From a virus, in IMG/VR virus record IMGVR_UViG_3300042892_000077, positions 1 to 56,281 of that record: a stretch of DNA of 56,281 nt; one strand, 5' to 3'. How positions within the stretch are numbered: the stretch's first letter is position 1; the number at the start of each line of letters is the position of its first letter. Of the stretch, positions 1 through 45,510 are shown piece by piece. The position numbers and the translations under genes were made by a program. The notes under the pieces were generated by a model. That model had not been told where the DNA came from, ran no database searches, and saw only the letters and a list, made by a program, of their open reading frames with translations.

Positions 1-59
1 AATTGGCATGACACTCACAACAGTAAACCCAGCCCTGCTGGACACCCAAGCCCAGTACA
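1..59. repeat. 59-bp terminal direct repeat (contig closure)
   Basis: Bases 1-59 are identical to 56223-56281. The repeat lies inside the 5' end of a tail-fibre gene and cuts it mid-codon-run, which is expected of an assembler overlap on a circular or circularly permuted molecule rather than of a biological terminus. Removing one copy gives a 56,222-bp circle, and the genes on either side of the join then read through normally. Confidence 0.9.
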
Positions 60-1087: not shown

Positions 1088-1089
1088 TC

Positions 1090-2103: not shown

Positions 2104-2111
2104 GGATAAAC

Positions 2112-5427: not shown

Positions 5428-5786
5428 TGGCTATCCGTCCTCCACGCTTCGTCGCTATCCCCAACATCCCGCAGAGCGGGTTGACTGACTGGCAGTTCAA
5501 CACACTGAACGCCATGAAGGAAAACGTCGAACTCCTCACGGGCGCTCGTGGTAGCCAGAACTTGGCAGCAAGCGCAGTTACAAGATCGTCAGTTACTGTT
5601 GCGCCTCCTGCAACACAGACGATGCAGCGCGTGACGGCAGAGGGCACCGGCTTTACAATCAGCAATGTAACGGTTCCAAGCCTTGACGATTACTCTAAAC
5701 TTGTGACCAATGTCCAGCAACTGGCAAATGACGTGGCGAATTTGCGGGCAACAGTGAACGTATTGATTTTACAAATTAAAGGTTGA
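5427..5786 (+). CDS. Small tail-associated structural protein (119 aa)
   Basis: The N-terminus (PPRFVAIPNIPQSGLTDWQFNTLNAMKENVELLTG) is a pattern often seen in short virion proteins of podoviruses. The C-terminal 35 residues form a likely coiled coil (YSKLVTNVQQLANDVANLRATVNVLILQIK), suggesting oligomerisation. TAATG overlap with the tail hub gene implies co-expression and assembly with it. The function beyond virion structure is unknown. Confidence 0.65.
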   Translation: MAIRPPRFVAIPNIPQSGLTDWQFNTLNAMKENVELLTGARGSQNLAASAVTRSSVTVAPPATQTMQRVTAEGTGFTISNVTVPSLDDYSKLVTNVQQLANDVANLRATVNVLILQIKG

Positions 5787-5788
5787 AC

Positions 5789-6628: not shown

Positions 6629-7074
6629 TGCAGGAACTGTCCATCGAACTGCTGTCCAAGGAGCGAGTGGTCGAGCTATGGCCCGCGCTTGAGCCGCTGT
6701 TTGATGCGGCCTGCGACGGTAACGTAATCGCCAAGGGCGAGATGGACGCTGGGCATGTGCTGCTGGCAACTCAGCTTGACAAAGCTGTTGTGTTCGCTGG
6801 CTTCCTCGATGGGAGCATCACCTGTGTTATCGCGCTTCAGTTCTACTACGTCAACGGGCACAAGGGTGCAGACGTGATGGGGCTGGCCGGGCGGGGGCTG
6901 CTTAAATTCAAAGCTGCATTCTGGGAACCCATCTTGGCATGGCTGCGAGCCAACGAGGTCGAGTTCCTTGATGCGTACACTCCCACTGATCGCGCCGAAA
7001 TGTACCTGAAGAAGTTTGGGTTCACCCAGACATGTGCCTACGTCAGAATGAATCTAGGAGAAAACCATGAGTAA
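6628..7074 (+). CDS. GNAT-fold-like internal virion assembly protein (148 aa)
   Basis: The segment pattern (a central hydrophobic strand near VFAGFLDGSITCVIALQFYY, a glycine-rich turn, then a C-terminal MYLKKFGFTQTCAYVRMNL) resembles the GNAT acyltransferase fold. It also resembles the small GNAT-like proteins that open podovirus ejection clusters in the position of T7 gene 13. The motif Q/RxxGxG/A for acetyl-CoA is not clear, so enzyme activity is doubtful. The start is ATG 6628, overlapping the previous stop by one base. Its end overlaps the next gene by 8 bp. Confidence 0.6.
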   Translation: MQELSIELLSKERVVELWPALEPLFDAACDGNVIAKGEMDAGHVLLATQLDKAVVFAGFLDGSITCVIALQFYYVNGHKGADVMGLAGRGLLKFKAAFWEPILAWLRANEVEFLDAYTPTDRAEMYLKKFGFTQTCAYVRMNLGENHE

Positions 7075-8311: not shown

Positions 8312-8335
8312 ACCGCGCATCACGAAGGAGCCAAC

Positions 8336-10165: not shown

Positions 10166-10168
10166 TTC

Positions 10169-22564: not shown

Positions 22565-23017
22565 CTAGTCCTCAGCTTTGACTGTTGGTTTGCGGACACT
22601 AACGCTCAACTTAGTGCCGTATGTAATACCGGGCGGGACGGCCTTGGTCAGGTCGATGTATCCACGCACGGCTGTTTTGCTCACACGCTTTTCCAGCATG
22701 TCGAACGCATCGTTCTCACGGATGAACGTCAGCACTGCATCCCAGTCGGCCACGTTCGCAAAGTCGGTGGTTGTCAGGAACGCTGTACCGTGCGCTGTCT
22801 TGAAGCTGGACACTCCAAGCTGGTCGGCCTGAGCTTTAATCCACGCTTCGAGCTTGGTCATCTTGGCCTCAATCGTGGACACCTTGTCTTTGATCTCTGC
22901 TTCGATGGCTTCCTTCTGCCTACGTAGCTTCATGTACGTGCCGATCACATCGTCCACGTTAGGTACGTCCATCCTTGCTCTGGCGTGGGACGCGATCTCC
23001 TCTGCATATTCACTCAT
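22565..23017 (-). CDS. Coiled-coil protein, possibly Gam-like (150 aa)
   Basis: A long central coiled coil (YMKLRRQKEAIEAEIKDKVSTIEAKMTKLEAWIKAQADQ, about residues 31-72) is followed by a globular end with FKTAHGTAFLTTTDFANVADWDAVL. The coil plus conserved end resembles Gam-type proteins that protect DNA ends from host nucleases, which would fit its place next to helicase and nucleases. The match is to architecture only. ATG 23017 is chosen because AGGTGAT precedes it, not the start at 23044. Confidence 0.65.
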   Translation of the reverse strand: MSEYAEEIASHARARMDVPNVDDVIGTYMKLRRQKEAIEAEIKDKVSTIEAKMTKLEAWIKAQADQLGVSSFKTAHGTAFLTTTDFANVADWDAVLTFIRENDAFDMLEKRVSKTAVRGYIDLTKAVPPGITYGTKLSVSVRKPTVKAED

Positions 23018-23021
23018 GTCA

Positions 23022-24590
23022 TCACCTCTTATTTGTAAGTTCACTAATCATGTCCAGCAGCAAGCCTTGCAGCTTCTGCTTTGTACGCAGCCGCTCGTAC
23101 ATCTTGTGCTCAAGGTCTGTCGCCTCGATGTGGATGACGTTGGACACGTTGCGTTTGCCGATGCGCTCGATACGACCATTGGCTTGCACGTAGACTTCGT
23201 TGCTGTTGATCGGCCCGTACCAGATAATCGTTGAGGCTGAGGTCAGTGTCAGACCGTGTGCCATCGTGCCGGGGTGGGCGATCAATACATGTGGGTCACG
23301 CTCGTGCTGGAACCCTTGGAATATCCTGTTGCGCTCTGACGCAGACACCGCACCGTTGACAACGCCAACAGACCAGTGCTTGCTCAGTTCTTTCTCCAAC
23401 ATGTGGAGTGTCCCTGTCAGTGGGACGAACAGAATTACTTTCTCTCCTGCTTCTTCGATGATCTCCTTGACCAAGTTAATCCGTGGGGAACAGTCGATCA
23501 GGATGTTCTGACCGTCATCGCCATACGCCACGCCGCAAGCGATCTGCACTAACTTCTGAACCTTGACTGCCTCGTTGACTGCCGTGATGGTTCCACCGGA
23601 CACGCGCTCCTGTGTCATCTCGGTCACGAAATGTTTGAGCATCTGCTCGTAGTGCTTCTTCTGCTCTGGGGTCAGGGCCACCTGCCTTGTCTGCACGATG
23701 GTCTCTGGCAAGTCAAAGCACTCGTCCCGTGTGTACCGCACCGATGGCTGGAGGATGTGCTTGACAATCTCCGTTGACTCCGGACGTGGCACGAACTTCC
23801 ACTGGCCTATCTTCATCATCACCTGTTCACGGAACGCGGTATACGTCTTGGTGCAGAACGGGCTGTTGATCAGCTTGGACAAAGCCCATGCGTCTGTCGG
23901 GTCGTTAGGCGTAGGTGTTCCGGTCATCAACCACAAACGTGCTGATGGGTTATTGTCTGCCCACTTGCGAAATATCTTGAACCGTTGCGTCGATGGGTTG
24001 CGCAGCACTGCTGCCTCGTCCACGATGATCAGGTCGAACATGCCGTGGCACTGCTCCTTGATGATGGGGAACCCGTCATGGTTGACGATATAAAACTGTA
24101 CGTCATGCTTGAGTAACTTCAGCCGCTTCTCTGCCGTGCCGTGCATCACCACGAACTTGTGGTGTGGAAAGCCAGTGAACAAGGCGTCACCCCAGACCCG
24201 CTCCAGTGTGGACAGCGGCGACAGTATCAGGACACGCTTGATCTTCTTGGTCTTGAGCAAGTAGTCCGCTGCCCACAGTGCGCTCTGGGTCTTGCCAGTA
24301 CCGATCTCGTTGAGTACCAGTGCCCGATGCTGCAAGGTCAGGAACGCTGCCGTCTGCTTCTGGTGGTCGTAAGGTACGTACTGGCCCGGCCACGGGTAGT
24401 AGTGCAGGATAGGGGATGGGGCTTCGATGCCCAGATTGCGCAGCACCTTGACTTCATCAAGCTGATGTGGCGTGATGACCAGTGTCACCCCCTGCACTTC
24501 AATTGTCTTGGCCGTGGGGATGCTGTCGAGTACCCTGTTGGGGTTGTTCAACTTCAGCGCAATCGCCCTTGACTTCTCAACTACCAGCAT
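23022..24590 (-). CDS. SNF2-family DNA helicase/translocase (522 aa)
   Basis: Motifs are seen in order: motif I NEIGTGKTQSA (about residues 90-100), motif Ia LILSPLSTLERVW, motif II VDEAAVLRN (DEAA), motif III LMTGTP, motif V near HPGTMAHGLTLTSAS and motif VI QANGRIERIGK (QxxGRxxRxG). This is a full-length superfamily 2 SNF2 core without accessory domains, as in many phages, acting in replication or recombination. A VRR-NUC nuclease gene lies immediately upstream with 4 bp between, a frequent phage pairing. ATG 24590 has an AAGGTAA site. Confidence 0.92.
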   Translation of the reverse strand: MLVVEKSRAIALKLNNPNRVLDSIPTAKTIEVQGVTLVITPHQLDEVKVLRNLGIEAPSPILHYYPWPGQYVPYDHQKQTAAFLTLQHRALVLNEIGTGKTQSALWAADYLLKTKKIKRVLILSPLSTLERVWGDALFTGFPHHKFVVMHGTAEKRLKLLKHDVQFYIVNHDGFPIIKEQCHGMFDLIIVDEAAVLRNPSTQRFKIFRKWADNNPSARLWLMTGTPTPNDPTDAWALSKLINSPFCTKTYTAFREQVMMKIGQWKFVPRPESTEIVKHILQPSVRYTRDECFDLPETIVQTRQVALTPEQKKHYEQMLKHFVTEMTQERVSGGTITAVNEAVKVQKLVQIACGVAYGDDGQNILIDCSPRINLVKEIIEEAGEKVILFVPLTGTLHMLEKELSKHWSVGVVNGAVSASERNRIFQGFQHERDPHVLIAHPGTMAHGLTLTSASTIIWYGPINSNEVYVQANGRIERIGKRNVSNVIHIEATDLEHKMYERLRTKQKLQGLLLDMISELTNKR

Positions 24591-26440: not shown

Positions 26441-26685
26441 TTGCTTTCCCCCTTGCGTACTGGGCTGTAGATCGTGAACGTCTTGGGCTTGAGTGCGATC
26501 AACTCCGCTGTCTTCTTGGTCATGCCGACAGTGCCGTAGTGTGGGTTGTCCACCTGCTCTCGCTCGATGGCCTTGGTCGATGCAATGCTGCGCTTGCGGG
26601 ACGTTTCGTTCTCGTTGCGTGTCTCACCCCGCTTGGCTCTTTCCTCGTCGGTGTACTGCCGCCAGTTGAATGCGTTGACCATCAT
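26437..26685 (-). CDS. Hypothetical basic protein (82 aa)
   Basis: The N-terminal half is highly charged (YTDEERAKRGETRNENETSRKR) and the C-terminal half has HYGTVGMTKKTAELIALKPKTF. It overlaps the stop of the DNA polymerase gene as ATGA. It may be a DNA-binding or polymerase-associated factor, but this is only suggested by charge and position. Confidence 0.6.
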   Translation of the reverse strand: MMVNAFNWRQYTDEERAKRGETRNENETSRKRSIASTKAIEREQVDNPHYGTVGMTKKTAELIALKPKTFTIYSPVRKGESK

Positions 26686-28562
26686 GTATCTCCGTAGTTG
26701 CTTGCCATGCCGGACTCACAGGCCACTGGCAGGGTCGGTGCCCAGACTGGTGGCGTAGACATCACACTCTCAAGAAGTTGCTGTGTCTGTGCGGCTGTGT
26801 CGCTCGCCGCTACGGTGACGATCTCGTCATGCACTTGGAACGTAGTGAGGATGCCGTGCTTACGGGCAGCAGCCATCTGTTCACGGATAACCAAAGCAGC
26901 GAGTGCTTGCACCACGTTCTCTGTCATCTTGCCGCCGTAGATTTTGGTGCGGTTGATCTCGGCCTCAGTACCCGCAGTCACCCGTGCTGTCACTGCCTTG
27001 CGATACGACCGCACATCGGCGATGTAGTCGAACCCGTTGGCCGTCTGCCGCAGCCCGTGGTATTGAATCTTCAACGTGTTGGGCAGTGTTACGCCGGTGT
27101 TGTCGTAGGTCACCTGCTCGTTCAACATACCGCTGCGCCCTTGCACCATGCCTGACAATGCGTGGCCACACGCTGACCACAACCCGACGATGCGGAAGTT
27201 CTTCTGCCGGTACAGACGCACAATCCTCTCGGCCTCGTTGAGGTCGATGATCACGTTCATACCACCCTGTCCGATCTCCAGTGTGCGCCGGAACTTCTCA
27301 GCACCCATGCCGTAGCCTAGTCCCAAGATGCAGGTCTTGCCGACGAAGCGTTCCACCTTGTCAGCCTTGGTAATGGTACGGCCATACACCTCGCTGGCAA
27401 ACTCAGAGTACACATCCCTGTTCTGCCTGAAGGCTTCAAGTAAGTCCTCCTGCTTGGCTAACCACGCCACTACACGGGCCTCAATCTGTGACGAGTCACA
27501 TGCAATGATCATGTGCCCCTCTGGTGCTTTGAGTGCCCTGCGTATGGTGTTGTTGCCACGTGCTGGCAGGTTCTGTAGGTTGAGCTTGTCACCCCCACTG
27601 AAGCGGCCTGTGTGTGCGCCGTAGTAGTTGAGCATGATGGGCAGCGCACCCCGTCCAGCCACCCCGATCAGTGCCTCGGTACGTGTCTGCTCGATGGTCG
27701 ATTTAACTCCCAGCCTTGCTGTCACCACTGCCTGTACACGGTCGTCCGGATGGTCGAGTAGGTCAGTCATACCCTTGTCTGTCTTGGCGAATGCCCACGC
27801 TTGCTTGCCTGTCTTGAGACTGGTCTTCACAGGCGGCTCGACACCCAGCTTCTTGAGGTACTGTGCGAAGATGTCGTTGCTCATCAGCATCTTGGTCAGT
27901 GCTTCACCGGATGCACCTGTCTCATCCAGACTGGAGATCAGCGCAGCCTTGCGTTCGTTTACTTCCACAAGATGTTGCTGCAAGAGTGGCACGTCAAGCT
28001 GGATCACGGGTTCGGTATACATGCGCAGTGTCTGGTCGATCACCAGCAACTCACTGGCAGGGAAGCCTTGCTTGAGTTTGTCGAACAGTTTGCGGGTAAT
28101 CTCCACATCGTTGATGCAGTACTCAGCGTACCGTGCCATCTCATCCGGCGAGAAGTCCTCACGGCGTTTGCCCAGTGCATTGACTACCTCTGTACCCTTG
28201 ACGCCCAGTCCGTAGTACGCAGTCAGCGCAGCCAGTGAACCACCCACAGATACGCTGTGCATTGGTCGAGCCATCGACAGTGTGTCCAGCCACAGCCTCG
28301 GCCTGATACCGAAGTGCCACGACAGGATAGCCCCGTCGAATGCAGTGTGATGGCACAGGATGGCCTTGTTGCTGTAGTCCAGCGAGTTTAGGAACGAGCC
28401 GGGGTTCTCCCCCGTGTACCAGTCTGTTGGGTGGTTGTTGACCTTGACCCCCACACCGATGACTTGGAACTGAGGGCTGCGTATGTACGATTCAGTAGTC
28501 ATCTTGGACAGACTGAACACTGGGTCGTAGTAGGTCTCGAAGTCGATGGTCACAATGTCCAT
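26682..28562 (-). CDS. Family A DNA polymerase with 3'-5' exonuclease (626 aa)
   Basis: The exonuclease domain has motif I IDFETYYD (D7, E9), a motif II-like CHHTAFDGAIL and motif III EYCINDVEIT, all intact. The polymerase domain shows motif A ACDSSQIEARVVAWLA, motif B-like KTCILGLGYGMG and motif C FQVHDEIV (H578-D579). Length is usual for phage enzymes of this family. It would replicate the genome with the primase-helicase encoded downstream. I chose ATG 28562, which overlaps the previous stop (TGATG), over the in-frame GTG at 28565. Confidence 0.97.
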   Translation of the reverse strand: MDIVTIDFETYYDPVFSLSKMTTESYIRSPQFQVIGVGVKVNNHPTDWYTGENPGSFLNSLDYSNKAILCHHTAFDGAILSWHFGIRPRLWLDTLSMARPMHSVSVGGSLAALTAYYGLGVKGTEVVNALGKRREDFSPDEMARYAEYCINDVEITRKLFDKLKQGFPASELLVIDQTLRMYTEPVIQLDVPLLQQHLVEVNERKAALISSLDETGASGEALTKMLMSNDIFAQYLKKLGVEPPVKTSLKTGKQAWAFAKTDKGMTDLLDHPDDRVQAVVTARLGVKSTIEQTRTEALIGVAGRGALPIMLNYYGAHTGRFSGGDKLNLQNLPARGNNTIRRALKAPEGHMIIACDSSQIEARVVAWLAKQEDLLEAFRQNRDVYSEFASEVYGRTITKADKVERFVGKTCILGLGYGMGAEKFRRTLEIGQGGMNVIIDLNEAERIVRLYRQKNFRIVGLWSACGHALSGMVQGRSGMLNEQVTYDNTGVTLPNTLKIQYHGLRQTANGFDYIADVRSYRKAVTARVTAGTEAEINRTKIYGGKMTENVVQALAALVIREQMAAARKHGILTTFQVHDEIVTVAASDTAAQTQQLLESVMSTPPVWAPTLPVACESGMASNYGDT

Positions 28563-28807
28563 CACTCAAGCTCCTCAAGTATCTCAAGAAGTTTCTGCAT
28601 GTAGTGCTTCCCCTTGGCGATCTCCACAGCGGACTCATCCTTGCTACCCATGCGCATCAGATACTTGAGCGCACCTCCACGGTAGTAACCAATGCGTTGC
28701 TCGATGGGCCATGTGTCCACCACATCCCACGGCTGCACGTCCATCTCCTTGTAGTGCGAACCGCCCACCTGCCGGTCGTTGGCACGTGTCGTGTCTAAGT
28801 CTGTCAT
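28562..28807 (-). CDS. DUF3310 protein (81 aa)
   Basis: The DUF3310 signature is clear: VGGSHYKEMDVQPWDVVDTW followed by GYYRGGALKYLMRMGSKD and a closing helix AVEIAKGKHYMQKLLE. Proteins of this family are often annotated as SaV-like nucleotide kinases, but the biochemical role is not settled. It is coupled directly to the polymerase gene. Confidence 0.9.
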   Translation of the reverse strand: MTDLDTTRANDRQVGGSHYKEMDVQPWDVVDTWPIEQRIGYYRGGALKYLMRMGSKDESAVEIAKGKHYMQKLLEILEELE

Positions 28808-28808
28808 C

Positions 28809-29303
28809 TCATGCTCCTGTTAAAGTTAATCTGGGTAGCTTGGTAGCACCCTTGTTGCGTATCTTGTTGGTGGCGTAGGTCAGCGCCCTGTCCATATCGC
28901 CAAGCGTAATCACATCCATCTGTGCATCATGCAACTCCATCATCATGTTCAAGGCGTTGATCTCCGGCCCTGTCGGGACGAACCGATGAATCTCAACAGC
29001 CCTGTACACGATGCGCAGCACTGCCTCACGTCCATCAACAGCGTGTGCTGCGTACTCTTTCCCAAAGCCGATGGCACACAGCGCCTCCACGATGTTGCTC
29101 ATGCTCACCAGCTTGTCGATGTCGTCCTTCACAGCAGCACCCTTGAGTAGTGCTGCCATAGCCTGACTGTTCTTGATCTTGAGGTCGATCAGGTACGAGT
29201 CATGCTTGGCTACAGGGGATATGTTCTCGATGACGTAGCCAAGCGGGTTAACAAACCTCGCTCGTGGTCTGTACTTCTTGGTTGGTTTTTTGTTCTTCGC
29301 CAT
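28809..29303 (-). CDS. Hypothetical protein (164 aa)
   Basis: The N-terminus is very basic (AKNKKPTKKYRPRARFVNP). The rest is predicted largely helical, with LVSMSNIVEALCAIGFGKEYAAHAVDGREAVLRIVYRA. ATG 29303 is chosen for its GGAG site rather than the upstream in-frame start at 29342. Its 5' end overlaps the 3' end of the next upstream gene by 56 bp. The family is unknown; nucleic-acid binding is possible from the basic start. Confidence 0.65.
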   Translation of the reverse strand: MAKNKKPTKKYRPRARFVNPLGYVIENISPVAKHDSYLIDLKIKNSQAMAALLKGAAVKDDIDKLVSMSNIVEALCAIGFGKEYAAHAVDGREAVLRIVYRAVEIHRFVPTGPEINALNMMMELHDAQMDVITLGDMDRALTYATNKIRNKGATKLPRLTLTGA

Positions 29304-30114
29304 ACTGATCTCCGAATACACCAAATCTTTTACGTAGCTCAATGCTCAACTTGTTGCACACAGCATCAACAGTGTCAACGACATGCGCCTTGGTTGGCCG
29401 CTCACCACGCCACCAGTTAACGTGTGATGATTTCACAAAGCCATCGAGTAGCACATCAGTGTATTCCCCATCGCGGATACACCTGTACAGGTAGTCAACC
29501 CACTTGGGGTTTACCCAGTCAGGCTTGTTCAGCATGAACGCACTACGCCCTCCGCGTTTTATCTCATCGTGCGACCTCTCACACAGCGTGTCCAGCACAC
29601 CGAGCTTGGCTCTGACTGCGATACCCCGCTTGAACTTACGCAGTGCCCGTAGCCACTGAAGATTGCGCTCACTGTCCGTTGAGTCAGTGAGTCTGGGTCT
29701 AGCGTTGATGCAGCAACCACGGGTCAGGTCGAACGCAACACCAGCGAACAACTCCTGCCCTGTCTTGTCCCATCGCTCCTTCACGTAGTACTGATACCGC
29801 AGTTGTCCTGACGGGTCATCGCGGTGGTACAAAAGCTCGAACGTGGACGTACCCTTACTGCGCCACAGGATGGGCAACACCCTGCTCAGGGAGCTACTCA
29901 TAGTGCGGGAGATGGTAGCCCCCTGCAACGGCGAGATGAGAAACGTCAGTACGTTGTCAGATGTCAGTGATGCGAACGTAACGTGGTCGTACATGAAGTA
30001 GAACGTGTCATCCTTCTTGATCATGGTTGCCCATGACCTCAGCTTCTTGAGCGTAGACTTACGCATGAAGCGCACTGCCGATGCGTAGTCGGTGATGAGT
30101 GGGCTGTAGTCCAC
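29248..30114 (-). CDS. Hypothetical protein (288 aa)
   Basis: A mixed alpha/beta protein with several aromatic strands (FYFMYDHVTFASLTSDNVLTF, FELLYHRDD) and a basic C-terminal third. No motif I can assign. No ATG fits the 5' end closely. GTG 30114, 1 bp after the upstream stop and preceded by GGGG, is the best start. The alternatives are TTG 30162 and ATG 30066. It belongs to the string of co-transcribed accessory genes. Confidence 0.65.
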   Translation of the reverse strand: MDYSPLITDYASAVRFMRKSTLKKLRSWATMIKKDDTFYFMYDHVTFASLTSDNVLTFLISPLQGATISRTMSSSLSRVLPILWRSKGTSTFELLYHRDDPSGQLRYQYYVKERWDKTGQELFAGVAFDLTRGCCINARPRLTDSTDSERNLQWLRALRKFKRGIAVRAKLGVLDTLCERSHDEIKRGGRSAFMLNKPDWVNPKWVDYLYRCIRDGEYTDVLLDGFVKSSHVNWWRGERPTKAHVVDTVDAVCNKLSIELRKRFGVFGDQYGEEQKTNQEVQTTSEVC

Positions 30115-30115
30115 G

Positions 30116-30742
30116 TCAGAACCCCATCTTGTTGGCTGCTGCCATCGCAGTGATACGGTCAAGGTCGATGGTAAGCACGGGTGCTACCTTTTCTCTGGAT
30201 ACAATGAGTCGGTGTGTATCCTTGACGTTATCAGGTATCAAGTCCCACAGTGGAGGCCATGCCTTGAGTGCCGGTGCAAGGGTAGAGTAGGTCGTGATGA
30301 CAGTCTTCACTGCGGATACGAACTCGTCACGCCTTGCCTCTGCTGCCTTGATACGCTCGTTGTACGCCACCAGTTGGGCATGGTAGTCATCCCACATTGA
30401 GGGATGGTTGAGGACAATCTCGTCACCATAGGAGCCGTTGTACTGCGCACCGTACGACGAATCGAATGACACGGGGAACGGCATCAGCTTACTCAACATG
30501 AAGGTGAAGTTGCAACGCAGTCCATTGACCTTGGCGACAATTATCTTGTCACGCATCTTGAAGAACTGCACAGGAAGTTTCTGCATGTCGGCCAGATGGG
30601 GGCCGAGGGTTTGTGCATAGATGTAGTCACCCCACCCTGTAGGCTCACTGTTCTTGGCTGCTTCGATCTTGTCTACAAACTTCTTGGACGCTATGTTGAG
30701 AATCTGCGTCTTCAGCGCATCGCTAAATCGTACTGTTGCCAT
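30116..30742 (-). CDS. Hypothetical protein, possibly Nmad5-like (208 aa)
   Basis: The N-terminal half contains KMRDKIIVAKVNG and a strand-rich region. The C-terminal half has a long charged helix and the motif ALKAWPPLWDLIPDNVKDTH. This last motif reminds me of the Nmad5 domain (putative nucleotide-modification-associated) of phage proteins, but I cannot confirm it. It is preceded by a short membrane protein gene and followed by the 288-aa gene without a gap. Confidence 0.65.
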   Translation of the reverse strand: MATVRFSDALKTQILNIASKKFVDKIEAAKNSEPTGWGDYIYAQTLGPHLADMQKLPVQFFKMRDKIIVAKVNGLRCNFTFMLSKLMPFPVSFDSSYGAQYNGSYGDEIVLNHPSMWDDYHAQLVAYNERIKAAEARRDEFVSAVKTVITTYSTLAPALKAWPPLWDLIPDNVKDTHRLIVSREKVAPVLTIDLDRITAMAAANKMGF

Positions 30743-30983: not shown

Positions 30984-31245
30984 GCCGTATTCCAATCCTA
31001 TGTTTAATGCACATCACTCGTGTCATCTCCGTTATCGTCTTAAACTTCTGCCATGACCCACCCGGTAGCCGAGCAGCAAACTGATGGGTGTGGACGTGGG
31101 TATCAAACCGCTTCACCATCTCGAATGCGTCATACCCCCTGTAGTAGATGGTGATGTCCCACTCGTCGCCCAACATCGTGTGCTGCGCCTTTGCTCGACT
31201 CCGAGTAGTTACCCCCACCTTGTAACCATCAGGCAGGGGCAGCAT
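30964..31245 (-). CDS. Hypothetical protein (93 aa)
   Basis: A beta-rich small protein (LPDGYKVGVTTRSRAKAQHTMLGDEWDITIYYRGYDAFEMVKRFDTHVHTHQ... in part) with a basic His-rich end. It starts at ATG 31245, which overlaps the stop of the zincin-VWA gene (TGATG), so it is translationally coupled to it. No family is recognised. Confidence 0.6.
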   Translation of the reverse strand: MLPLPDGYKVGVTTRSRAKAQHTMLGDEWDITIYYRGYDAFEMVKRFDTHVHTHQFAARLPGGSWQKFKTITEMTRVMCIKHRIGIRHDDHRD

Positions 31246-32405
31246 CACATCTCCACCACTTCGCCGAACGGCGCAGTACCGGGGTCTGTCGTAACCCACA
31301 GCACAGGACAGTCAGGTGCATCGCCGAAACTGTTGCAGCACAGGTCAGTCAGGAACACCACAGCAACTGGCTCGATGTTGAGTTCAGCGATCTTGGCAAA
31401 CACCGGAGCAAAGTCTGTACCACCACCGCCGTGTGGCTTGATGTCCAGCGCATCGTCTGGGCCGTAGTCCTCAACGTGGCTGACCTCAGAGTCAAAGTAC
31501 AGCACGTGTACACGTGTCGGTAGCAGGTCTTCCTTGAACGTCGTGATCTCCGCTGCAAACTGGTTGATCACCTCGCTGGTGATGGAGCCGGAGCAATCCA
31601 CTGCGTATACAACCTCGCCCATCTGCTCACCGCTGGAGCTTGGCAGGTACAGGTTCTGTGCAATGAAGCGGCGGTTAGGCCGTGCCCAAGACCGAGTGTC
31701 AGCCTTGCACTTCTGGAGGAATCGCTGCATCACTTCACGCCAGTTAACCTTGGGGTGCAACACCTCGTCAACCAGTCGCTGCATGTTGGCAGACAACTTG
31801 CCCATCATCTTGGCAGCTTGCGCAGCCTGAGCAACCTTGACCTTCCACTCAGCCTGTGTCTGAGCCTGTTCAGCAGGGCCACCGGAGCCGTCCTCGCAGT
31901 TGTCCAGTGGGTCACCCTCACCGCCGTACTCACCGCTGTCGTCCTCTTGTGGCAGGATGTTGTAGATACCATCCGAAGTACCGTTGCCAGCGTTGTAGAT
32001 TTGCGGGTTCATCAGCCCCTGCTTGGGCATCTTGCCGATGTTGTCGTTGACCAGTAGCTGGTTGATCACGTAGTCAGCGGCCTTGTTCCAGCGCCGAGCC
32101 TGTCGCTCACCACGTCTGAAGTTGTGCTCCAGCATGGGGTGCATACACTCATGGGCCACAAGGAACTTAAGCTCCTCGTCTGTCAACGTGCCAATGAAGT
32201 CGGGGTTGAACACCACCCGCTTGCCGTTGGTTGCAGCAGTGGGTACTGCACGGTCAAGCAGGAACGGCATACCGAGGGCGATAGTACCGATGAACGGATG
32301 CTCAAGAATCAGGGCAGTCTTGGCTTTCGCCAGTCTGATCTTGAGCTTGGCTTCCTCAGCCGGAGTAAGGGGCTGAACTTCAGCCGGAGCAGTAGCAACA
32401 GACAT
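31245..32405 (-). CDS. Zincin plus VWA-like protein, DUF2201 type (386 aa)
   Basis: The N-terminal half carries a metallopeptidase-like motif H85-E86-C-M-H89-P-M-L-E-H94. The middle is acidic and Gly-rich (about residues 155-180). The C-terminal half is a von Willebrand A-type domain with MIDAS DCSGS (D270-S274) and a later GGGGTDFAPVF (conserved Thr/Asp). This is the VWA-like metallopeptidase (DUF2201) arrangement, which normally works with a MoxR-type AAA+ ATPase. Such an ATPase is encoded three genes upstream at 33688-34674. The pair is expected to remodel or cleave a protein target in a magnesium- and ATP-dependent way. The target is unknown. Confidence 0.88.
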   Translation of the reverse strand: MSVATAPAEVQPLTPAEEAKLKIRLAKAKTALILEHPFIGTIALGMPFLLDRAVPTAATNGKRVVFNPDFIGTLTDEELKFLVAHECMHPMLEHNFRRGERQARRWNKAADYVINQLLVNDNIGKMPKQGLMNPQIYNAGNGTSDGIYNILPQEDDSGEYGGEGDPLDNCEDGSGGPAEQAQTQAEWKVKVAQAAQAAKMMGKLSANMQRLVDEVLHPKVNWREVMQRFLQKCKADTRSWARPNRRFIAQNLYLPSSSGEQMGEVVYAVDCSGSITSEVINQFAAEITTFKEDLLPTRVHVLYFDSEVSHVEDYGPDDALDIKPHGGGGTDFAPVFAKIAELNIEPVAVVFLTDLCCNSFGDAPDCPVLWVTTDPGTAPFGEVVEM

Positions 32406-32413
32406 GTAATCTC

Positions 32414-32776
32414 CTAGTTAAGACGAACGATTTCAACGAACTTGCCAGTGTGGTCAATCGTTGTGATGGAAGCACCAGTACCCCAGTGTTTGTTGCACCA
32501 CGCTGCCATCGAACCCCGCAGGTTCTCAGGTTTGAACTCAGCGAACGGAACCTTGGCAGCACCACCGGGTGGCATGTCCTTGAGGTACGGTATGAAGTGC
32601 TTGGTCAGCGACCCTACTGGATGCAGACTCGCAGCCCTTGTCCGCAGCTTGGCAGGAGGCAGCACTTGCAAGGTGCCGTACTCAGTACCATCAGGCAGGA
32701 TGATCTTGTACTGGGCCTTGAGACCAGTCAGTGTATTAATGGCCCTGTCGAAGGCGATTTGTTGGATAGTCAGCAT
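32414..32776 (-). CDS. Hypothetical protein between DUF3150-like and VWA genes (120 aa)
   Basis: A basic protein with YKIILPDGTEYGTLQV near the N-terminus and a C-terminal region with NLRGSMAAWCNKHWG. It lies between the DUF3150-like and zincin-VWA genes, 1 and 8 bp from them, and so is probably part of the same module. The family is unknown; it could be a substrate adaptor or target of the ATPase. GGGAG site upstream. Confidence 0.6.
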   Translation of the reverse strand: MLTIQQIAFDRAINTLTGLKAQYKIILPDGTEYGTLQVLPPAKLRTRAASLHPVGSLTKHFIPYLKDMPPGGAAKVPFAEFKPENLRGSMAAWCNKHWGTGASITTIDHTGKFVEIVRLN

Positions 32777-32777
32777 G

Positions 32778-33626
32778 TTATTTAGCTCCCATGAAGACGC
32801 TCATTGCGTCCATAATTTTCTTAGCTTCTGCTGCCGTATCACGGCGCAGGTCGGGGTCGTTACGCAGGGCGTCAGGATGCTTGATCAGTGACGCTTCAAC
32901 CTGTTGACGCATGGCCTCAAGGTTAGGGTCATCACTGAAGTTCAGCCTTGGTAGCAGGGCACAGATTTCACGAGTGTTCTCCAGCATGGAGTCACGGAAG
33001 ATCGCCTTGGGGTCAGCCAGCTTCTCAGCCATGTGCTTCACCCTGTCGTACAGCCGAGTCCACACCTCGCTCATGGCCTTGCCTTGTGCATCGGCAACAC
33101 GCTTCTCAACATCTTGTTGGATGCGGAGCAACTCTGCTGATGCGATGCTTACACGGAAGTCCGCAGACGGAACAGGGAACACGGCCATGTCCATGCTGAA
33201 CTTGTCAGAGACCTGCCACCGCAGTGGATAGTCCGACTCGTTGTACAGGTTGCCGAGTACCCGCTGGGCAGCGAGTTTGAGACTGTCGTAGTTGTCAACG
33301 AAGGTCTGCACCAGTGACTCCCACTCGCCCTTCTCCTTGCGGAAGTCGGACATGAAGTTGAGGTAGTTGCTGGTGGGCAGCATCATCGTGCCATCCATAC
33401 CCCACGGCAGTGTGTTGTCGTAGTACTTCTGCCGAATCAGTGTCGCTTTCTTGTGGACATGATCAAGCAGATCGTTCATTGGCAACAGCGACTTGTTGTA
33501 CCGGCCAGCACCCATCGTGGTGTTGTTGGCATCGGCCACCTGCCGTGTGGCAGTCTTGTCGTACTTACGGGCTGTCCACTGGCTGATGTTCAACTGAACA
33601 AGCAGGGCTCTATCGTTTAGATTCAT
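32778..33626 (-). CDS. DUF3150-like protein (282 aa)
   Basis: The start MNLNDRALLVQLNISQWTARKYD and the long helical body (RIQQDVEKRVADAQGKAMSEVWTRLYDR) resemble the DUF3150 family. That family is often found with MoxR/CobS-like ATPases and VWA proteins in phages, plasmids and ICEs. Its molecular role is unknown. The gene follows the ATPase after 61 bp and precedes the 120-aa gene by 1 bp. A strong AGAGGAGA site is present. Confidence 0.7.
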   Translation of the reverse strand: MNLNDRALLVQLNISQWTARKYDKTATRQVADANNTTMGAGRYNKSLLPMNDLLDHVHKKATLIRQKYYDNTLPWGMDGTMMLPTSNYLNFMSDFRKEKGEWESLVQTFVDNYDSLKLAAQRVLGNLYNESDYPLRWQVSDKFSMDMAVFPVPSADFRVSIASAELLRIQQDVEKRVADAQGKAMSEVWTRLYDRVKHMAEKLADPKAIFRDSMLENTREICALLPRLNFSDDPNLEAMRQQVEASLIKHPDALRNDPDLRRDTAAEAKKIMDAMSVFMGAK

Positions 33627-33687
33627 AGGATTCTCCTCTATACAGGTTGGTAGGTGTTAAGCACAGTAGATTACTAATAACCATCGC

Positions 33688-34674
33688 TCAAAACAGCACA
33701 TCTTGGTGGGCAATCGACCACTTGGTGAACGCTTGTGTGTTGGCAAGGTCGGGGTTACGCCGTGCTGCTTGGCTGATGGTCAACACGCTGAACTCTGGTG
33801 GCATACGCTCGGCGTAGGTACAGACCCTCTCGAAGTTGCCGTCCGTAGCTCGCTGTGCAATAGCACCAGACAGGGCATACAGAGTCGCAGGGTCAGAGGG
33901 CACATCACCAGCAGTGGGGTTCAGCAGGATAGCGTCAGGGTTGGGCAGCTTGCGGAAGATACGCAGGAACCCAACGAACTCAGCAGCAGCACCCTCACCG
34001 ACAGCACCCTTGAACGACTCGTACTCAGCCTCTGGTGGCACAGTACCAAGCACATCGGACACACCCTCAACCCATGATCGAGGTGTAGGGTTCTGGTCAC
34101 GCTGTGGGTCAGAGTCATGCAGCAGGTTGGGACGAAAGCGAATGAACGAGATTATCTCTGGCTTTACATCGTTGTCAATAGCCCAGCTTGTAAAGTCATC
34201 GAGGTGGGTCTCCAACTCGTACACAGTCTCTCGGTTACGCAGATGGGACAGCACACGGTTAGCACCAGCCCTGTCGGACTGCCTGTTGCCAGTGGACACT
34301 ACCTGCCATCCATCGGGCATCGACACACCGTGCAGATTACGGGCTTGGCAGATGTTTGCCAGCACCTTTTGAAGGTCACCGTTGGCTTGGTTGCGGTCGT
34401 CAAACAGCAGGATGCCACGCTCTGGGGCTTTGCCCTTGACAGGGAACCAGTCTGGCAGTCGGTACTTCAGACCGCCGTCACCATCGGGGAACAGGATACC
34501 GAAGTCCTCGACCAGCATGGTCGGCATGTGCCGTTCGATGCAGGGTACATCAAGCTCCTTGGCAACTTCATGTACGATGGTTGTCTTACCACCACCGGGA
34601 GCACCCTCGATGCAGATGGTACGCTGGATGGGGAACAGGGACTTGATAGTGTCCTTGAGAAGTGTAGCTCGCAT
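33688..34674 (-). CDS. MoxR-type AAA+ ATPase (328 aa)
   Basis: Walker A GAPGGGKT is at residues 24-31. Walker B GILLFDDRNQA is at about residues 87-97, where MoxR proteins usually read LLFDE(L/I)N(R/K)A, so the usual Glu is replaced by Asp (D93). Sensor 1 follows as VVSTGNRQ, and the arginine-rich region is SHLRNRE. The C-terminal helical lid is typical. The protein would power remodelling of a target together with the zincin-VWA protein. The gene heads a cluster of four genes. Its ATG has an AAAGGAAT site, and a 54-aa gene precedes it by 2 bp. Confidence 0.9.
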   Translation of the reverse strand: MRATLLKDTIKSLFPIQRTICIEGAPGGGKTTIVHEVAKELDVPCIERHMPTMLVEDFGILFPDGDGGLKYRLPDWFPVKGKAPERGILLFDDRNQANGDLQKVLANICQARNLHGVSMPDGWQVVSTGNRQSDRAGANRVLSHLRNRETVYELETHLDDFTSWAIDNDVKPEIISFIRFRPNLLHDSDPQRDQNPTPRSWVEGVSDVLGTVPPEAEYESFKGAVGEGAAAEFVGFLRIFRKLPNPDAILLNPTAGDVPSDPATLYALSGAIAQRATDGNFERVCTYAERMPPEFSVLTISQAARRNPDLANTQAFTKWSIAHQDVLF

Positions 34675-39344: not shown

Positions 39345-39513
39345 CGAGACGTTCGACGGGATGCAGGCAGCGAAGTTCAAGACCGCCAGTGAGGCGGCAA
39401 ACTTGGAGACCAACTTGAAGTGGTTGAGTCGGTCGTACCGCACGAAGATTGTCACAACAAAAAAGCACGGACGTGAGTTCGTGGTGATGCTACTGGAGCA
39501 GTATGGCGCTTGA
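39310..39513 (+). CDS. Hypothetical protein between terminase genes (67 aa)
   Basis: A small basic helical protein (LFNETFDGMQAAKFKTASEAANLETNLKWLSRSYRTK) overlapping the small terminase by 35 bp and the large terminase by 11 bp. It could be a packaging accessory. An internal ATG at 39361 is an alternative start. The family is unknown. Confidence 0.55.
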   Translation: MPLPSSIQALFNETFDGMQAAKFKTASEAANLETNLKWLSRSYRTKIVTTKKHGREFVVMLLEQYGA

Positions 39514-40891
39514 TATTTCGTACACCCCACCGCCCACGGGCAAGAAGTTCATGGCGTCCAACGCCAAGATGCGCACCCTGATGGGGCCGGTCGGTTCGGG
39601 CAAGTCAGTGACCTGCTCGTTCGAGGTCATCCGCAGAGCGTCCATGCAAGCGCCCGATGCTACGGGCAAGCGCAGGTCACGGGCAGCGGTTGTGCGGGAA
39701 ACCGTGCGGCAGTTACAGGACACGACCATCAAGACGTTCCTCGACTGGTTCCCGCCGGGGCAGTGTGGGCAGTACATGCGCACCACCAAGACCTACCTGT
39801 TCAGCGTTGGCGATGTGGAGTGCGAGATTATGTTTCGGGCGTTGGATGACGCTGACGACGTCGCCAACTTGAACTCGTTGGAGTTGACCTTCGCGTGGTT
39901 CAACGAGTGCCGCGACATCCACCCGGATATTGTGGACGCCATGTCCAAACGGATTGGGCGGTTCCCCTCGGCCAAGGACGGCGGGCCGACATGGCATGGG
40001 ATGTGGGCGGATACCAACCCGCCGACGATGGACACGTGGTGGTACTACCAGATGGAGGGGCTGGACATCAAGGACGGTGTGTCGCCCAACAACAACGGAT
40101 GGGACGTGTTCAAGCAGCCGTCGGGGCGCAGTCCTTACGCTGAGAACATCGAGAACCTGCCGGACGGGTACTACGATACACAGGGCCGCAGCGAGGAATA
40201 CGTGCGGGTTTACATCGACGGAGAGTATGGGCTGTCGTCGGCGGGTATGCCGGTGTACAAATACTTCCGGCCCGACTACCACATGGCGAAGGGGCCGCTG
40301 CGTTCCATCATCAACGGGGTTCGGCCCATCGTCGTGGGGATGGACTTGGGGCTTACACCTGCGGCGGTCATCGGCCAGCAAGACCCACGCGGACGGGCAC
40401 TGGTGCTCGACGAGTGCGTCAGTTTCGACATGGGGGCCCAGCGGTTCATCCGCACCATGCTCAAGCCGCTGCTCTACGAGCGGTTTCCCGGCGCACCCGT
40501 GCTCATCGTCGTTGACCCGGCAGGTGTGCAGCGGGCGCAGACCGACGAGCGCTCGGCAGTGGACATCATCCGGGCTGAGGGTATGCGGGTTATCCCTGCC
40601 AAGACCAACAGCGTCTCGGCGCGGGTCAACGCGGTGGACGAGTACCTCATGCGGCAAGTGGACGGTGACCCCGGCTTCCTGCTCGACCCGAGATGCACCC
40701 AGCTTAAAGCCGCCATGATGGGTGGGTACCGCTACAAGCCCAAGGGCGACGGGGACATCGACAAAAACAAACACTCGCACGTAGCCGAGGCGCTCCAGTA
40801 CCTGATGCTGCACATCGCCAGCGCGGGGGAAGGTGGGCACATGCCCATGCGCCGAGAAATAAAGCGTGCGGCAAGCGCAGGATGGACATGA
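39503..40891 (+). CDS. terL: Terminase large subunit (462 aa)
   Basis: The ATPase domain has Walker A GPVGSGKS (about residues 28-35), followed by Walker B LTFAWFNECRD (about residues 128-138). The C-terminal nuclease domain has the metal ligands in VVGMDLGLTP (first Asp), VDPAG (second region) and KHSHVAEALQY near the end. The ATPase drives DNA into the procapsid, and the nuclease cuts it. Length is in the usual range. An intrinsic terminator follows 46 bp after the stop. Confidence 0.95.
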   Translation: MALDISYTPPPTGKKFMASNAKMRTLMGPVGSGKSVTCSFEVIRRASMQAPDATGKRRSRAAVVRETVRQLQDTTIKTFLDWFPPGQCGQYMRTTKTYLFSVGDVECEIMFRALDDADDVANLNSLELTFAWFNECRDIHPDIVDAMSKRIGRFPSAKDGGPTWHGMWADTNPPTMDTWWYYQMEGLDIKDGVSPNNNGWDVFKQPSGRSPYAENIENLPDGYYDTQGRSEEYVRVYIDGEYGLSSAGMPVYKYFRPDYHMAKGPLRSIINGVRPIVVGMDLGLTPAAVIGQQDPRGRALVLDECVSFDMGAQRFIRTMLKPLLYERFPGAPVLIVVDPAGVQRAQTDERSAVDIIRAEGMRVIPAKTNSVSARVNAVDEYLMRQVDGDPGFLLDPRCTQLKAAMMGGYRYKPKGDGDIDKNKHSHVAEALQYLMLHIASAGEGGHMPMRREIKRAASAGWT

Positions 40892-41024: not shown

Positions 41025-41219
41025 ATGAAAATGCCGAAATCGAAAGCTGGTAAGTCGTACGAAATCTTTTCGACGAACCCGAAAATGGATACCTCCGGTA
41101 TGGCTGGTAAGCCCAAGCCATTTGAGGTGTACGCATACACGCCACCACCTATGGACATCGAGGACATGATGGAAGCGCGTGAGATGAAGACCAACAAAAA
41201 ACCGGAAGCGGAGTCCTGA
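41025..41219 (+). CDS. Hypothetical small protein before portal (64 aa)
   Basis: A basic N-terminus (MKMPKSKAGKSYEIF), a Pro-rich centre (YAYTPPPMDIEDMMEAREM) and a charged end. An AAGGAAC site precedes the ATG, and its stop overlaps the portal start (TGATG). It is a frequent companion of podovirus portal genes with unknown role. Confidence 0.6.
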   Translation: MKMPKSKAGKSYEIFSTNPKMDTSGMAGKPKPFEVYAYTPPPMDIEDMMEAREMKTNKKPEAES

Positions 41220-43267
41220 TGGCCGGTCTGACATTCCTGCGGGTTGTCAACAACACTGACCTTGCAAAGCAAGAGCAGGAAGTCTCTGACCGCGCTTTAC
41301 AAGAGCGCCAGAACCAGCCCATCATCCTCGGCCTTGCCTCCTACCTGCGTGAGTGCTGGGATGCAGCCCAGATGGCCAAGCGGCCCATCGAGCAGGAGAT
41401 GCTCCAAGCGCTGCGTCAGCGCAACGGCCAGTACGAGGCCGACAAGCTCAAGCAGATTCAGGGTCAGGGCGGCTCTGAGTTGTACATGATGATCACCGAA
41501 GTCAAGTGCCGTGCGGCTGAGTCGTGGTTGCGCGACATCCTGCTGGACAACGGCTCGCCCCCTTGGGACTTGACTGCTACCCCCATCCCTGACCTGTCAC
41601 CTGCCCAGACGCGGGATGTGCAGGAGCTTTTTGCCGAGCGCGTGTTGAAGATGGTCGGTGAAATCGGCCAAGCTCCCACCCGTGAGGAGATGAGCGAGAT
41701 GCGCGAGATGGTCTCGCAGGACTACCGCTTCAAGGTACTGCACGATGCACAGATGCGGGCCGACAGGATGAAGCTGAAGATTCAAGACCAGTTCGCACAA
41801 GGCGGCTGGGAGAGTTCGTTCAACGACTTCATCACCGATCTGGTCACGCACCCTGCTGCGTTCGTCAAAGGCCCGATTGTCCGCCGTCAGCGCACGCTGG
41901 GCTGGAAGACTGACGCCACTGGCCGCACCGTGGTCGAGCCCATTGAGCGCCTTGGCCCCGAGTACGAGCGCGTTGACCCGTTCCGTATCTACCCCGAGCC
42001 GGGCATCAGCACGATCAACGAAGGCTACCTGTTCGAGCATCACCGCATGTCCCGCATGACGCTGGCCGACATGATCGGTTTGCCGGGCTACGACGACGAT
42101 GCCATCCGCAAAGTGCTGGAAATCGGCAACGGTTTGTCGTGGATTGGTGAGGATGTGGAGTTGCAAAAGGACGAGGAGGAGCGCAAGTTCTACTCGTACA
42201 TGCGGCCAACTACCGAGTTCGACGCGCTTGAATTCTGGGGCAAAGTCAGCGGCAAGATGCTCATCGAGTGGGGTCTGTCGGAGGAAGATGTGCCCGATTC
42301 GGCCCGTGAGTACGACGCCAACGTGTGGCTGGTCGGCAACTACGTCATCAAGGCGGTGCTGAACTATGACCCCCTCGGCGAGAAACCGTACGCCAAAACC
42401 TCGTTTATCAAGTGTCCGGGCGCATTCTGGGGCAAGGGTATTCCCAAGATCATTGAAGACCTGCAAGGCGTGTGTAACGCTGCCGCAAGGGCATTGGTGA
42501 ACAACATGGGCATCTCCTCTGGCCCGCAGGTTGAGGTCAACCTTGAGCGCATCCCGCCAAACGAGGACATCACCCAGTTGACCCCGTGGAAAATCTGGCA
42601 GGTTACCAACGACCCCGTTGGCTCCAGTGCTCCGGCCATCCGGTTCACGCAGCCTGATTCACGTGCCAACGAGTTGATGGCTGTCTACGAGAAGTTCAGC
42701 CGTCTGGCCGATGACCACTCCGGTATCCCTGCGTACGTCTACGGCGACCTGAATGTTCAGGGTGCTGGCCGCACATCGTCTGGCCTGTCCATGCTCATGG
42801 GCGCGGCAGGCAAGGGTATCCGGCAAGTCGTGATGCACATCGACACCGATGTGGTCAAACCAATTGTCCTTCGTCAGTTCGTGTACAACATGCGCTACGA
42901 CGAGGATGAGTCCATCAAGGGCGACGTTGAAGTTTCAGCGAAGGGCGCGATCAATCTCGCCGTCAAGGAAACTGTCAACATTCGCCGCATCGAGTTCCTC
43001 AACGCAACCGCCAACCCCATTGATCTTGAGATTCTTGGGAAGGAAGGACGAGCCACCATCCTACGGGAAGTGGCTAAAGGGTTGCAAATGCCTGTGGAGG
43101 AAGTTGTTCCATCTCGGGAGAAGTCGGACTATCAGGGTCGTATGCAGGCGAGAGCGGCGCAACAAGCGCCAGCCCCGTCAGCTACCCCCGAGCGTCCTGA
43201 CGGCTCTCCCAAAGGTGGGATGGAAGCCAACACAGTTCAAAGCCGCGTGAGTGGACAGGCCGCATGA
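41219..43267 (+). CDS. Portal protein, head-to-tail connector (682 aa)
   Basis: Large protein following the terminase and preceding scaffold and capsid genes. It has the helical N-terminal region and segments such as KSLLK-type EYERVDPFRIYPEPG, LQGVCNAAARALVNNMGISSGPQ and YVYGDLNVQGAGRTSSGLSMLMG, which are typical of podovirus portals. It forms the dodecameric DNA channel at one capsid vertex. The C-terminal 60 residues are low in complexity. Confidence 0.9.
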   Translation: MAGLTFLRVVNNTDLAKQEQEVSDRALQERQNQPIILGLASYLRECWDAAQMAKRPIEQEMLQALRQRNGQYEADKLKQIQGQGGSELYMMITEVKCRAAESWLRDILLDNGSPPWDLTATPIPDLSPAQTRDVQELFAERVLKMVGEIGQAPTREEMSEMREMVSQDYRFKVLHDAQMRADRMKLKIQDQFAQGGWESSFNDFITDLVTHPAAFVKGPIVRRQRTLGWKTDATGRTVVEPIERLGPEYERVDPFRIYPEPGISTINEGYLFEHHRMSRMTLADMIGLPGYDDDAIRKVLEIGNGLSWIGEDVELQKDEEERKFYSYMRPTTEFDALEFWGKVSGKMLIEWGLSEEDVPDSAREYDANVWLVGNYVIKAVLNYDPLGEKPYAKTSFIKCPGAFWGKGIPKIIEDLQGVCNAAARALVNNMGISSGPQVEVNLERIPPNEDITQLTPWKIWQVTNDPVGSSAPAIRFTQPDSRANELMAVYEKFSRLADDHSGIPAYVYGDLNVQGAGRTSSGLSMLMGAAGKGIRQVVMHIDTDVVKPIVLRQFVYNMRYDEDESIKGDVEVSAKGAINLAVKETVNIRRIEFLNATANPIDLEILGKEGRATILREVAKGLQMPVEEVVPSREKSDYQGRMQARAAQQAPAPSATPERPDGSPKGGMEANTVQSRVSGQAA

Positions 43268-44583: not shown

Positions 44584-45510
44584 ATGTCTTATCCCGTTTC
44601 CCCCGGTCGCCCAAATTACAGCGGCAACTTCATCCCAGAAATCTGGTCTGGTAAATTGATCGAGAATTTCTACGACGCCACCGTGCTCGCAGCTATCTCG
44701 AACACCACCTACGAAGGTGAGATTCGTCAGTACGGCGATACGGTCAACATCCGTACCACCCCTGAGATCACCATCCGTGACTACGTGAAGGGCCAAACCC
44801 TGACCGTTGAGAACCCAGACAAGCCAAAGCTCCAGTTGATCATCGACAAAGGCGAGTACTTCGCTTGCGTTGAAGATGATGTGGACAAGGTTCAGGCTGA
44901 CATCAACTTGATGGACACTTGGTCGAAAGACGCTTCCGAGCGTATGAAAATCAAGATCGACCAGCGCGTTCTGACTGACATCCTGCCCGGCATTTCGTCT
45001 TTCAACAAAGGCGCAACCGCTGGTGAGCAGTCCCTGTCGTTCAACCTCGGCACTTCTGGCGCTCCGCTGGTCGTGACTAAGGATGGCGCTGGTGGTACTG
45101 TCTCCGTGGTTGACCTGCTGGTTGACATGGGCACCGTGCTGGACGAAGCCAATGCTCCTGAGAGCGACCGCTTCATCGTCATTCCTGCCAAGATGGCTGG
45201 TCTGATCAAGAAGTCGGAACTGAAAGACGCTTCGCTGACTGGTGACAGCATGTCTGTCGTCCGTAACGGTCGTCTGGGTATGGTTGACCGCTTCACGATC
45301 TACGTGAGCCACAACCTGTCTGTGTCTTCGGGCAAGTACAACATCGTCGCCGGTCACAAGATGGGCTTCACGTTTGCCAGCCAGATGACCAACATGGAAA
45401 CCATCCGCTCCGAGTCCACCTTCGGCAACATCATCCGTGGTCTGCAAGTCTACGGCTACAAAGTTGTCAAGGGCGAAGCTCTGGCTCAGTCGGTTATCTC
45501 GTTCTCGTAA
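44584..45510 (+). CDS. Major capsid protein (308 aa)
   Basis: It begins MSYPVSPGRPNYSGNFIPEIWSG, followed by YEGEIRQYGDTVNIRTTPEITIRDY and the long helix region typical of HK97-fold capsid proteins in podovirus-like phages. The C-terminal FTFASQMTNMETIRSESTFGNIIRGLQVYG block is also conserved. A strong GAGGAG site precedes the ATG. A GC-rich hairpin follows the stop within 6 bp. Codon use appears strongly biased, as for an abundant protein. Confidence 0.9.
   Translation: MSYPVSPGRPNYSGNFIPEIWSGKLIENFYDATVLAAISNTTYEGEIRQYGDTVNIRTTPEITIRDYVKGQTLTVENPDKPKLQLIIDKGEYFACVEDDVDKVQADINLMDTWSKDASERMKIKIDQRVLTDILPGISSFNKGATAGEQSLSFNLGTSGAPLVVTKDGAGGTVSVVDLLVDMGTVLDEANAPESDRFIVIPAKMAGLIKKSELKDASLTGDSMSVVRNGRLGMVDRFTIYVSHNLSVSSGKYNIVAGHKMGFTFASQMTNMETIRSESTFGNIIRGLQVYGYKVVKGEALAQSVISFS

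Follow-up and report, generated by a model that had tools for sequence, protein, structure and literature searches.

In NorQD, RavA-ViaA and CbbQ-CbbO, a separate MoxR-type AAA+ motor is accompanied by a cofactor with a C-terminal VWA domain (PMC9976466). NorD binds its target via the metal site (MIDAS) of this domain, and the remodelling is powered by the MoxR ring as it hydrolyses ATP (PMC9976466). Rea1/midasin (MDN1) works by a MIDAS grip plus an AAA motor (PMC6624252, PMC8837202): its MIDAS binds the ubiquitin-like (UBL) domains of assembly factors, which the AAA engine dislodges (PMC6624252). A phage-borne pair, composed of a MoxR ATPase and a zincin-VWA protein, is already known as gp24/gp25 of N4, from about 600 phage records and, since 2021, from jumbo phages. 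Here we analyzed a 56,281-base viral contig from IMG/VR (the window, on whose numbering all features are given), the minus strand of which encodes this pair together with a DUF3150-like helical protein. As far as our searches show, the three-part form has not been described previously, and it is built from the known phage pair.

The original prediction for the window had proposed a set of four consecutive minus-strand genes. The sequence and our alignments confirmed the four open reading frames (ORFs), together with their Walker, HExxH...H and MIDAS motifs, at the predicted places. However, the conserved unit is three genes, MoxR, DUF3150-like and zincin-VWA, not four. Among the 72 contigs that contained both ends of the region, 71 have the order MoxR, DUF3150, VWA, 208-aa gene, 304-aa gene and DNA polymerase, and the remaining one has no recognised 304-aa gene; a family A DNA polymerase lies downstream of the triplet in every contig surveyed. 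The 120-aa ORF between the DUF3150 and VWA genes is optional, being present in only six of the 72 contigs, and was rejected as a fourth member, whereas the other three genes co-occur across phages and plasmids. A second sample was fetched via the DNA polymerase, so that the contigs were not chosen by the module itself, and all three genes were present in 29 of the 29 contigs with enough upstream sequence. The three-part form is fixed in a podovirus family that is uncultured, as far as the collection shows, since the isolates closest by DNA polymerase (RHph_TM3_14A and KPP25) are just 36-37% identical. No near-identical phage isolate was found for the 25-41 kb stretch of the window.

The core genes are strongly conserved. 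The median identity to the window over the 72 contigs is 84.8% for MoxR, 76.7% for DUF3150 and 73.8% for VWA, as compared to 71.0% for the DNA polymerase, whereas the 208-aa and 304-aa neighbours reach only 39.4% and 32.8%, the latter counted in only 25 of the 72 contigs. Across 50 distinct contigs, conservation exceeds that of the DNA polymerase in 49 for MoxR, in 47 for DUF3150 and in 35 for VWA. The median nonsynonymous divergence (dN) is 0.124 for MoxR, 0.198 for DUF3150, 0.227 for VWA and 0.229 for the DNA polymerase, but reaches 0.624 for the 208-aa gene. Given that the core genes stand at or above the conservation of the DNA polymerase while their neighbours diverge, this pattern argues for a core function rather than an arms race, although on its own it cannot distinguish a role in replication from one in virion assembly.

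The ATPase belongs to the N4 gp24 family. In an alignment of 51 representatives, G27, G29 and K30 of Walker A are invariant or almost so, and the alignments also show that sensor-1 N130, sensor-2 R199 and the Arg-finger candidate R148 are present and conserved. When the family profile was compared with solved structures, the midasin AAA modules ranked first (1.2e-36) and the next families followed at about 1e-9 (next best 7e-10), placing the protein in the MoxR/midasin clade rather than among other AAA+ proteins. With the single MoxR protein, Pfam AAA_5 gave 0.0015, under the cut-off, and a single-sequence PDB search gave no match. The midasin profile match, together with the PHROG 1297, PHROG 1314 and DUF2201 matches, bears out the earlier reading of the locus as a MoxR-VWA remodelling pair.

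The catalytic Glu of Walker B is replaced by Asp, as had been noted before, and the replacement is real: the motif reads LLFDDRNQA, as in the window, or LCFDDRNQA in all 70 distinct family sequences. The Asp, a natural variant of the site, is a fixed trait of the lineage and no chance variant. It is also found in plasmid ATPases of Burkholderia, Cupriavidus, Simplicispira and Variovorax, all accompanied by DUF3150, while every ATPase from other phages in the alignment has Glu at this position. Among the sets examined, the Asp is confined to those bearing DUF3150. Nevertheless, DUF3150 is found with a Walker B Glu in Rhodovastum, MinM2 and L179, indicating that DUF3150 does not require the Asp.

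The zincin-VWA protein, of the N4 gp25 family, matches Pfam DUF2201_N (4.7e-47; 161.3 bits against a gathering score of 23.2) and DUF2201 (1.7e-27; 96.4 against 26.4 bits), as well as PHROG 1314 (3e-102). It retains both an intact HExxH, in line with the zincin half originally proposed, and a complete MIDAS. All 79 distinct family contexts contain HExxH and its downstream His, and D270, S272, S274, T330 and D354 of the MIDAS are invariant in 66 representatives. Judging by conservation, the third zinc ligand would be H94 or D111. In a fold search, the VWA half matched VWA domains, including those of NorD in the NorQD complex and the MDN1 MIDAS, and the other half matched the peptidase selecase. 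Many phage records of this family, such as N4 gp25, are titled 'HNH endonuclease' or 'homing endonuclease'. The former is also the label of PHROG 1314, and we rejected it, as Pfam assigns the window member to DUF2201_N and DUF2201 and to no HNH family. In the Variovorax plasmid NZ_LR594672.1 (8007-9293), which carries a complete triplet, two residues of HExxH, its first His and its Glu, are missing from the VWA protein, but the MIDAS is kept and the partner has the Walker B Asp. Proteolysis may therefore be dispensable in some copies. The proteolytic outcome that had been suggested is thus possible, but not obligatory.

The remaining core protein is 31-39% identical to plasmid and MinM2 homologues, some of the plasmid ones being named DUF3150, and a full-length Foldseek match was obtained to a viral "DUF3150 domain-containing" protein (E 7.6e-16, 28% identity). 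The DUF3150 assignment of the original prediction stands on this fold match and plasmid homology, but not on the Pfam profile: the window protein alone scored 12.1 bits against the PF11348 gathering score of 24.9 (E 0.12), and its relatives also fell under the cut-off (best E in the alignment 0.009; 22.1 bits for the Cupriavidus homologue). We therefore call it DUF3150-like. Its predicted fold has no significant match among solved structures, a scan of viral contigs for the plasmid DUF3150 found none, and a literature search for DUF3150 returned no paper. The gap between the DUF3150 and VWA genes (window 32406-32777, and the same slot elsewhere) is an insertion hotspot, occupied by CxxC-type small proteins, an HNH gene or other small ORFs.

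Searches with the VWA protein and with the ATPase found the MoxR and zincin-VWA pair in 601 and 635 phage records, respectively, including N4 gp24/gp25, giant phages and Paride. By comparison, the only isolated phages with a DUF3150 related to that of the window are MinM2 and two Planktothrix phages, Pag-Yong1 and Pra-JY27. As anticipated for mobile elements, the complete triplet also occurs on plasmids of Burkholderia, Cupriavidus, Rhodovastum, Simplicispira and Variovorax. In the ATPase tree, the window family, the triplet plasmids, MinM2 and RHph_TM3_14A are joined (support 92/96, not a starred branch); the VWA tree places MinM2 and Rhodovastum elsewhere, with modest support. Actinobacterial chromosomes carry MoxR-DUF2201 pairs without DUF3150. 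A scan of genomes gave one match, CAKZRW010000107.1, which is binned in the genome of an uncultured actinobacterium and belongs to the same phage family, reflecting either a binning error or an infecting phage. The Acinetobacter baumannii 'plasmid' pRBH2-3 (NZ_CP110465.1, 75 kb) carries a DNA-directed RNA polymerase gene and an N4 gp24/gp25-type pair, and may be the genome of an N4-like phage that was recorded as a plasmid. On the Synechocystis PCC 6803 plasmid pSYSA (NZ_CP073020.1), a MoxR and DUF2201 VWA pair adjoins toxin-antitoxin-like genes.

The N4 pair (Schitoviridae) and the MoxR/metallopeptidase-vWA pair of group 2.2 jumbo phages share with the window the same two families, their order and the intact HExxH and MIDAS, but have the Walker B Glu, no DUF3150 gene in the stretches read and only about 22-36% protein identity. 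The Burkholderiales megaplasmid triplet has all three proteins, the order, the Walker B Asp and the ATPase clade of the window family; it differs in lying often 4-10 kb from a PRTRC cassette and in its roughly 31-39% identity, and no DNA polymerase neighbour was present in the stretches read. In the cyanophage MinM2 and in Pag-Yong1 and Pra-JY27, the MoxR, DUF3150 and (in MinM2) VWA genes are ordered as in the window, but with the Walker B Glu, several more small genes between them and about 30% identity. Midasin, with its AAA modules, matches the ATPase family best among solved structures and combines the MIDAS grip with the AAA motor; in contrast, it is one giant eukaryotic polypeptide without a zincin, and its substrate is in ribosome assembly. 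NorQD, RavA-ViaA and CbbQ-CbbO resemble the window set in their separate motor and VWA cofactor, but serve cellular cofactor-insertion, respiratory-complex or rubisco roles, and NorQ has a Walker B Glu (E109). To our knowledge, no zincin domain has been described for their VWA partners. Two other systems were rejected as counterparts. The VMAP systems have the order VMAP-MoxR-vWA and a variable C-terminal effector on the vWA protein (PMC7159879), whereas the window has the order MoxR-DUF3150-VWA and its protein ends with the VWA domain. For the CobS/CobT cobaltochelatase subunits, the match to PHROG 249 is just 0.005, and the VWA protein is a DUF2201 protein.

Since the set has the same parts as NorQD and Rea1/midasin, a grip-and-pull machine is the best reading. 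We tentatively favor, at slightly below an even chance, a single ATP-driven remodelling machine made up of the core proteins and acting most likely on a protein complex of phage DNA metabolism. By analogy with NorQD, RavA-ViaA and midasin, the MoxR protein would form the AAA+ ring that serves as the motor, and the DUF2201 protein would dock on this ring and grip the substrate via its MIDAS. The DUF3150-like helical protein would be the third subunit or the substrate adaptor of this sub-type. As for the zincin domain, our guess is that it may clip or hold the substrate. The substrate itself is likewise guessed, from gene position: the machine, encoded with the replication genes, would remodel a protein complex that serves the DNA metabolism of the phage. 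The set is linked to the DNA polymerase in the window and in Rhizobium phage RHph_TM3_14A, it adjoins a helicase and a polymerase in LIT1, and a thymidylate synthase or dCTP/dCMP deaminase gene lies within about 6 kb in 8 of the 16 phage loci read, a figure that has no background rate and includes N4-like loci that are not independent.

Several observations weigh against this reading. The machine is predicted from sequence, and hydrolysis could be weak with an Asp in Walker B. The subunit role of the DUF3150-like protein is read from gene linkage, and its structure model is moderate (pLDDT 75, pTM 0.47). In the stretch read of KPP25, a relative by DNA polymerase, no pair could be recognised, implying that the job is not universal. 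Finally, virion genes adjoin the pair in the jumbo phages 121Q and RaK2, which speaks for a chaperone-protease in virion assembly or maturation, whereby MoxR-VWA would help to build the particle and the zincin would process structural proteins. This role was proposed in print in 2021 for the same pair in jumbo phages (PMC7824862), in a paper that cites a peptidase-less MoxR-vWA system required for archaeal virus tail assembly, and the high conservation would fit it too. However, the replication-side minus-strand operon that holds the window set is separate from the virion genes on the plus strand, the pair of N4 and its relatives is accompanied by the middle RNA polymerase and nucleotide genes, and virion-less plasmids and bacterial chromosomes hold the same pair or triplet. 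We consider a virion role unlikely.

Equally unlikely, in our estimate, is a host-takeover or anti-defence machine that would dismantle or cleave a host complex or a defence protein, the role preferred in the original prediction on the grounds that the set lies in an early block. The replication-side operon does open with small genes, which the set follows, bacteria have related MoxR-vWA ternary systems as conflict systems (PMC7159879), and the pSYSA pair is found beside toxin-like genes. The step from an early block to an anti-host role does not hold up, however: the DNA polymerase evolves faster than MoxR and DUF3150 and about as fast as VWA, no loss was seen in the 29 contigs, no variable effector domain is present, and a PADLOC search with the DUF3150 and VWA proteins returned no family match. 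Still less probable is that the Walker B Asp leaves a weak or inactive ATPase, and that the set acts as a stable scaffold or an ATP-gated switch. The fixation of the Asp in the family and its presence on the Burkholderia, Cupriavidus, Simplicispira and Variovorax plasmids would fit this, but the retention of Walker A, sensor 1, the Arg finger and sensor 2 suggests that hydrolysis still matters.

We give very little credence to a split, virus-borne midasin-like engine, the MIDAS of which would grip a ubiquitin-like handle on the substrate. Such a handle would be in keeping with the binding of UBL domains by the midasin MIDAS, and the plasmid triplet is usually no more than about 10 kb away from the PRTRC cassette, whose products include a ubiquitin-like protein and E1-, E2- and JAB-type proteins; in 34 Burkholderiales plasmids found in both searches, the ATPase and the PRTRC ThiF share a record, mostly within roughly 10 kb. 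On the other hand, this association may have been inherited with one plasmid lineage. PRTRC ThiF occurs in 332 records, most of them without the triplet, and no PRTRC gene was found near the Rhodovastum, Simplicispira and Variovorax triplets in the stretches read, so that the link may be shared ancestry only. In addition, a search of the window, made without a positive control, found no ubiquitin-like gene of the PRTRC Pfam family. Slimmer still is the chance of metal-cofactor insertion, a CobS/CobT or chelatase-like auxiliary metabolism. The MoxR-VWA architecture is like that of CobS-CobT, which is present in some tailed viruses (PMC8651126), and there is the weak PHROG 249 match, but this stands against PHROG 1297 at 1.6e-66, the VWA partner carries an HExxH domain, and no cofactor gene was recognised among the searched window ORFs. 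The family assignments largely refute this explanation.

In the window, virion genes occupy the plus strand at both ends. On the minus strand, read leftward between about 37.4 kb and 18 kb, small genes come first, followed by the core set and then by genes for DNA polymerase A, an exonuclease-like protein, a helicase and a primase-like protein. The 208-aa family is weakly similar to Nmad5 (nucleotide modification associated), which is matched by 11 of 12 members (best 6.1e-5); given how weak this similarity is, a role in nucleotide modification was set aside. A scan for promoters and terminators found terminators at chance level and promoters slightly above it. A 159-aa gene at 22565-23044 (minus strand) weakly resembles Mu Gam in Pfam searches (4.7e-5 to 0.002, under the cut-offs). 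Amid the virion genes, a 2608-aa ORF (10169-17995) matches PHROGs of unknown function with its C-terminal 500 residues alone.

Table 1. Core genes, their motifs and neighbouring features on the window
Feature	Position	Strand	Basis or occurrence
MoxR-type AAA+ ATPase, 328 aa (N4 gp24 family)	33688..34674	-	PHROG 1297, 1.6e-66
Walker A GAPGGGKT, residues 24-31	34582..34605	-	read from sequence
Walker B LLFDD, residues 89-93, Asp at catalytic Glu position	34396..34410	-	
DUF3150-like helical protein, 282 aa, third core subunit (predicted)	32778..33626	-	homology and fold match
120-aa ORF, optional insert outside core, between DUF3150 and VWA genes	32414..32776	-	6/72 contigs
DUF2201 protein, 386 aa: N-terminal zincin-like metallopeptidase domain and C-terminal VWA (N4 gp25 family)	31245..32405	-	Pfam, PHROG 1314
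HExxH....H motif, residues 85-94 (H85, E86, H89, H94)	32124..32153	-	
MIDAS DxSxS, residues 270-274	31584..31598	-	
208-aa fast-evolving neighbour, weakly Nmad5-like	30116..30742	-	72/72 contigs, median identity 39.4%
304-aa fast-evolving neighbour, kind not recognised, start codon uncertain	29248..30162	-	same position in 71/72 contigs
Family A DNA polymerase, conserved downstream neighbour	26682..28565	-	Pfam DNA_pol_A, 3.1e-33
Terminase	39503-40891	+	
Portal-like	41219-43267	+	
Major head protein	44584-45510	+	
Internal virion and tail proteins	8-17995	+	

The original prediction described the phage role of such sets as undefined, and indeed no function for the pair turned up in the literature searched; the main text of the CRISPRi-ART paper holds no N4 gp24/gp25 result, as its 'gp25' belongs to PTXU04. 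The pair is nonetheless carried by some 600 sequenced phages, including N4, and is widely labelled 'HNH endonuclease'. The three-part form, common to phages and plasmids and conserved at least as well as the DNA polymerase, points to a central job. It provides a defined set of subunits for reconstitution, and the pair can be tested in N4 on laboratory E. coli K-12. With its Walker B Asp, the family is also a natural variant in which to study the tuning of an AAA+ motor by that residue.

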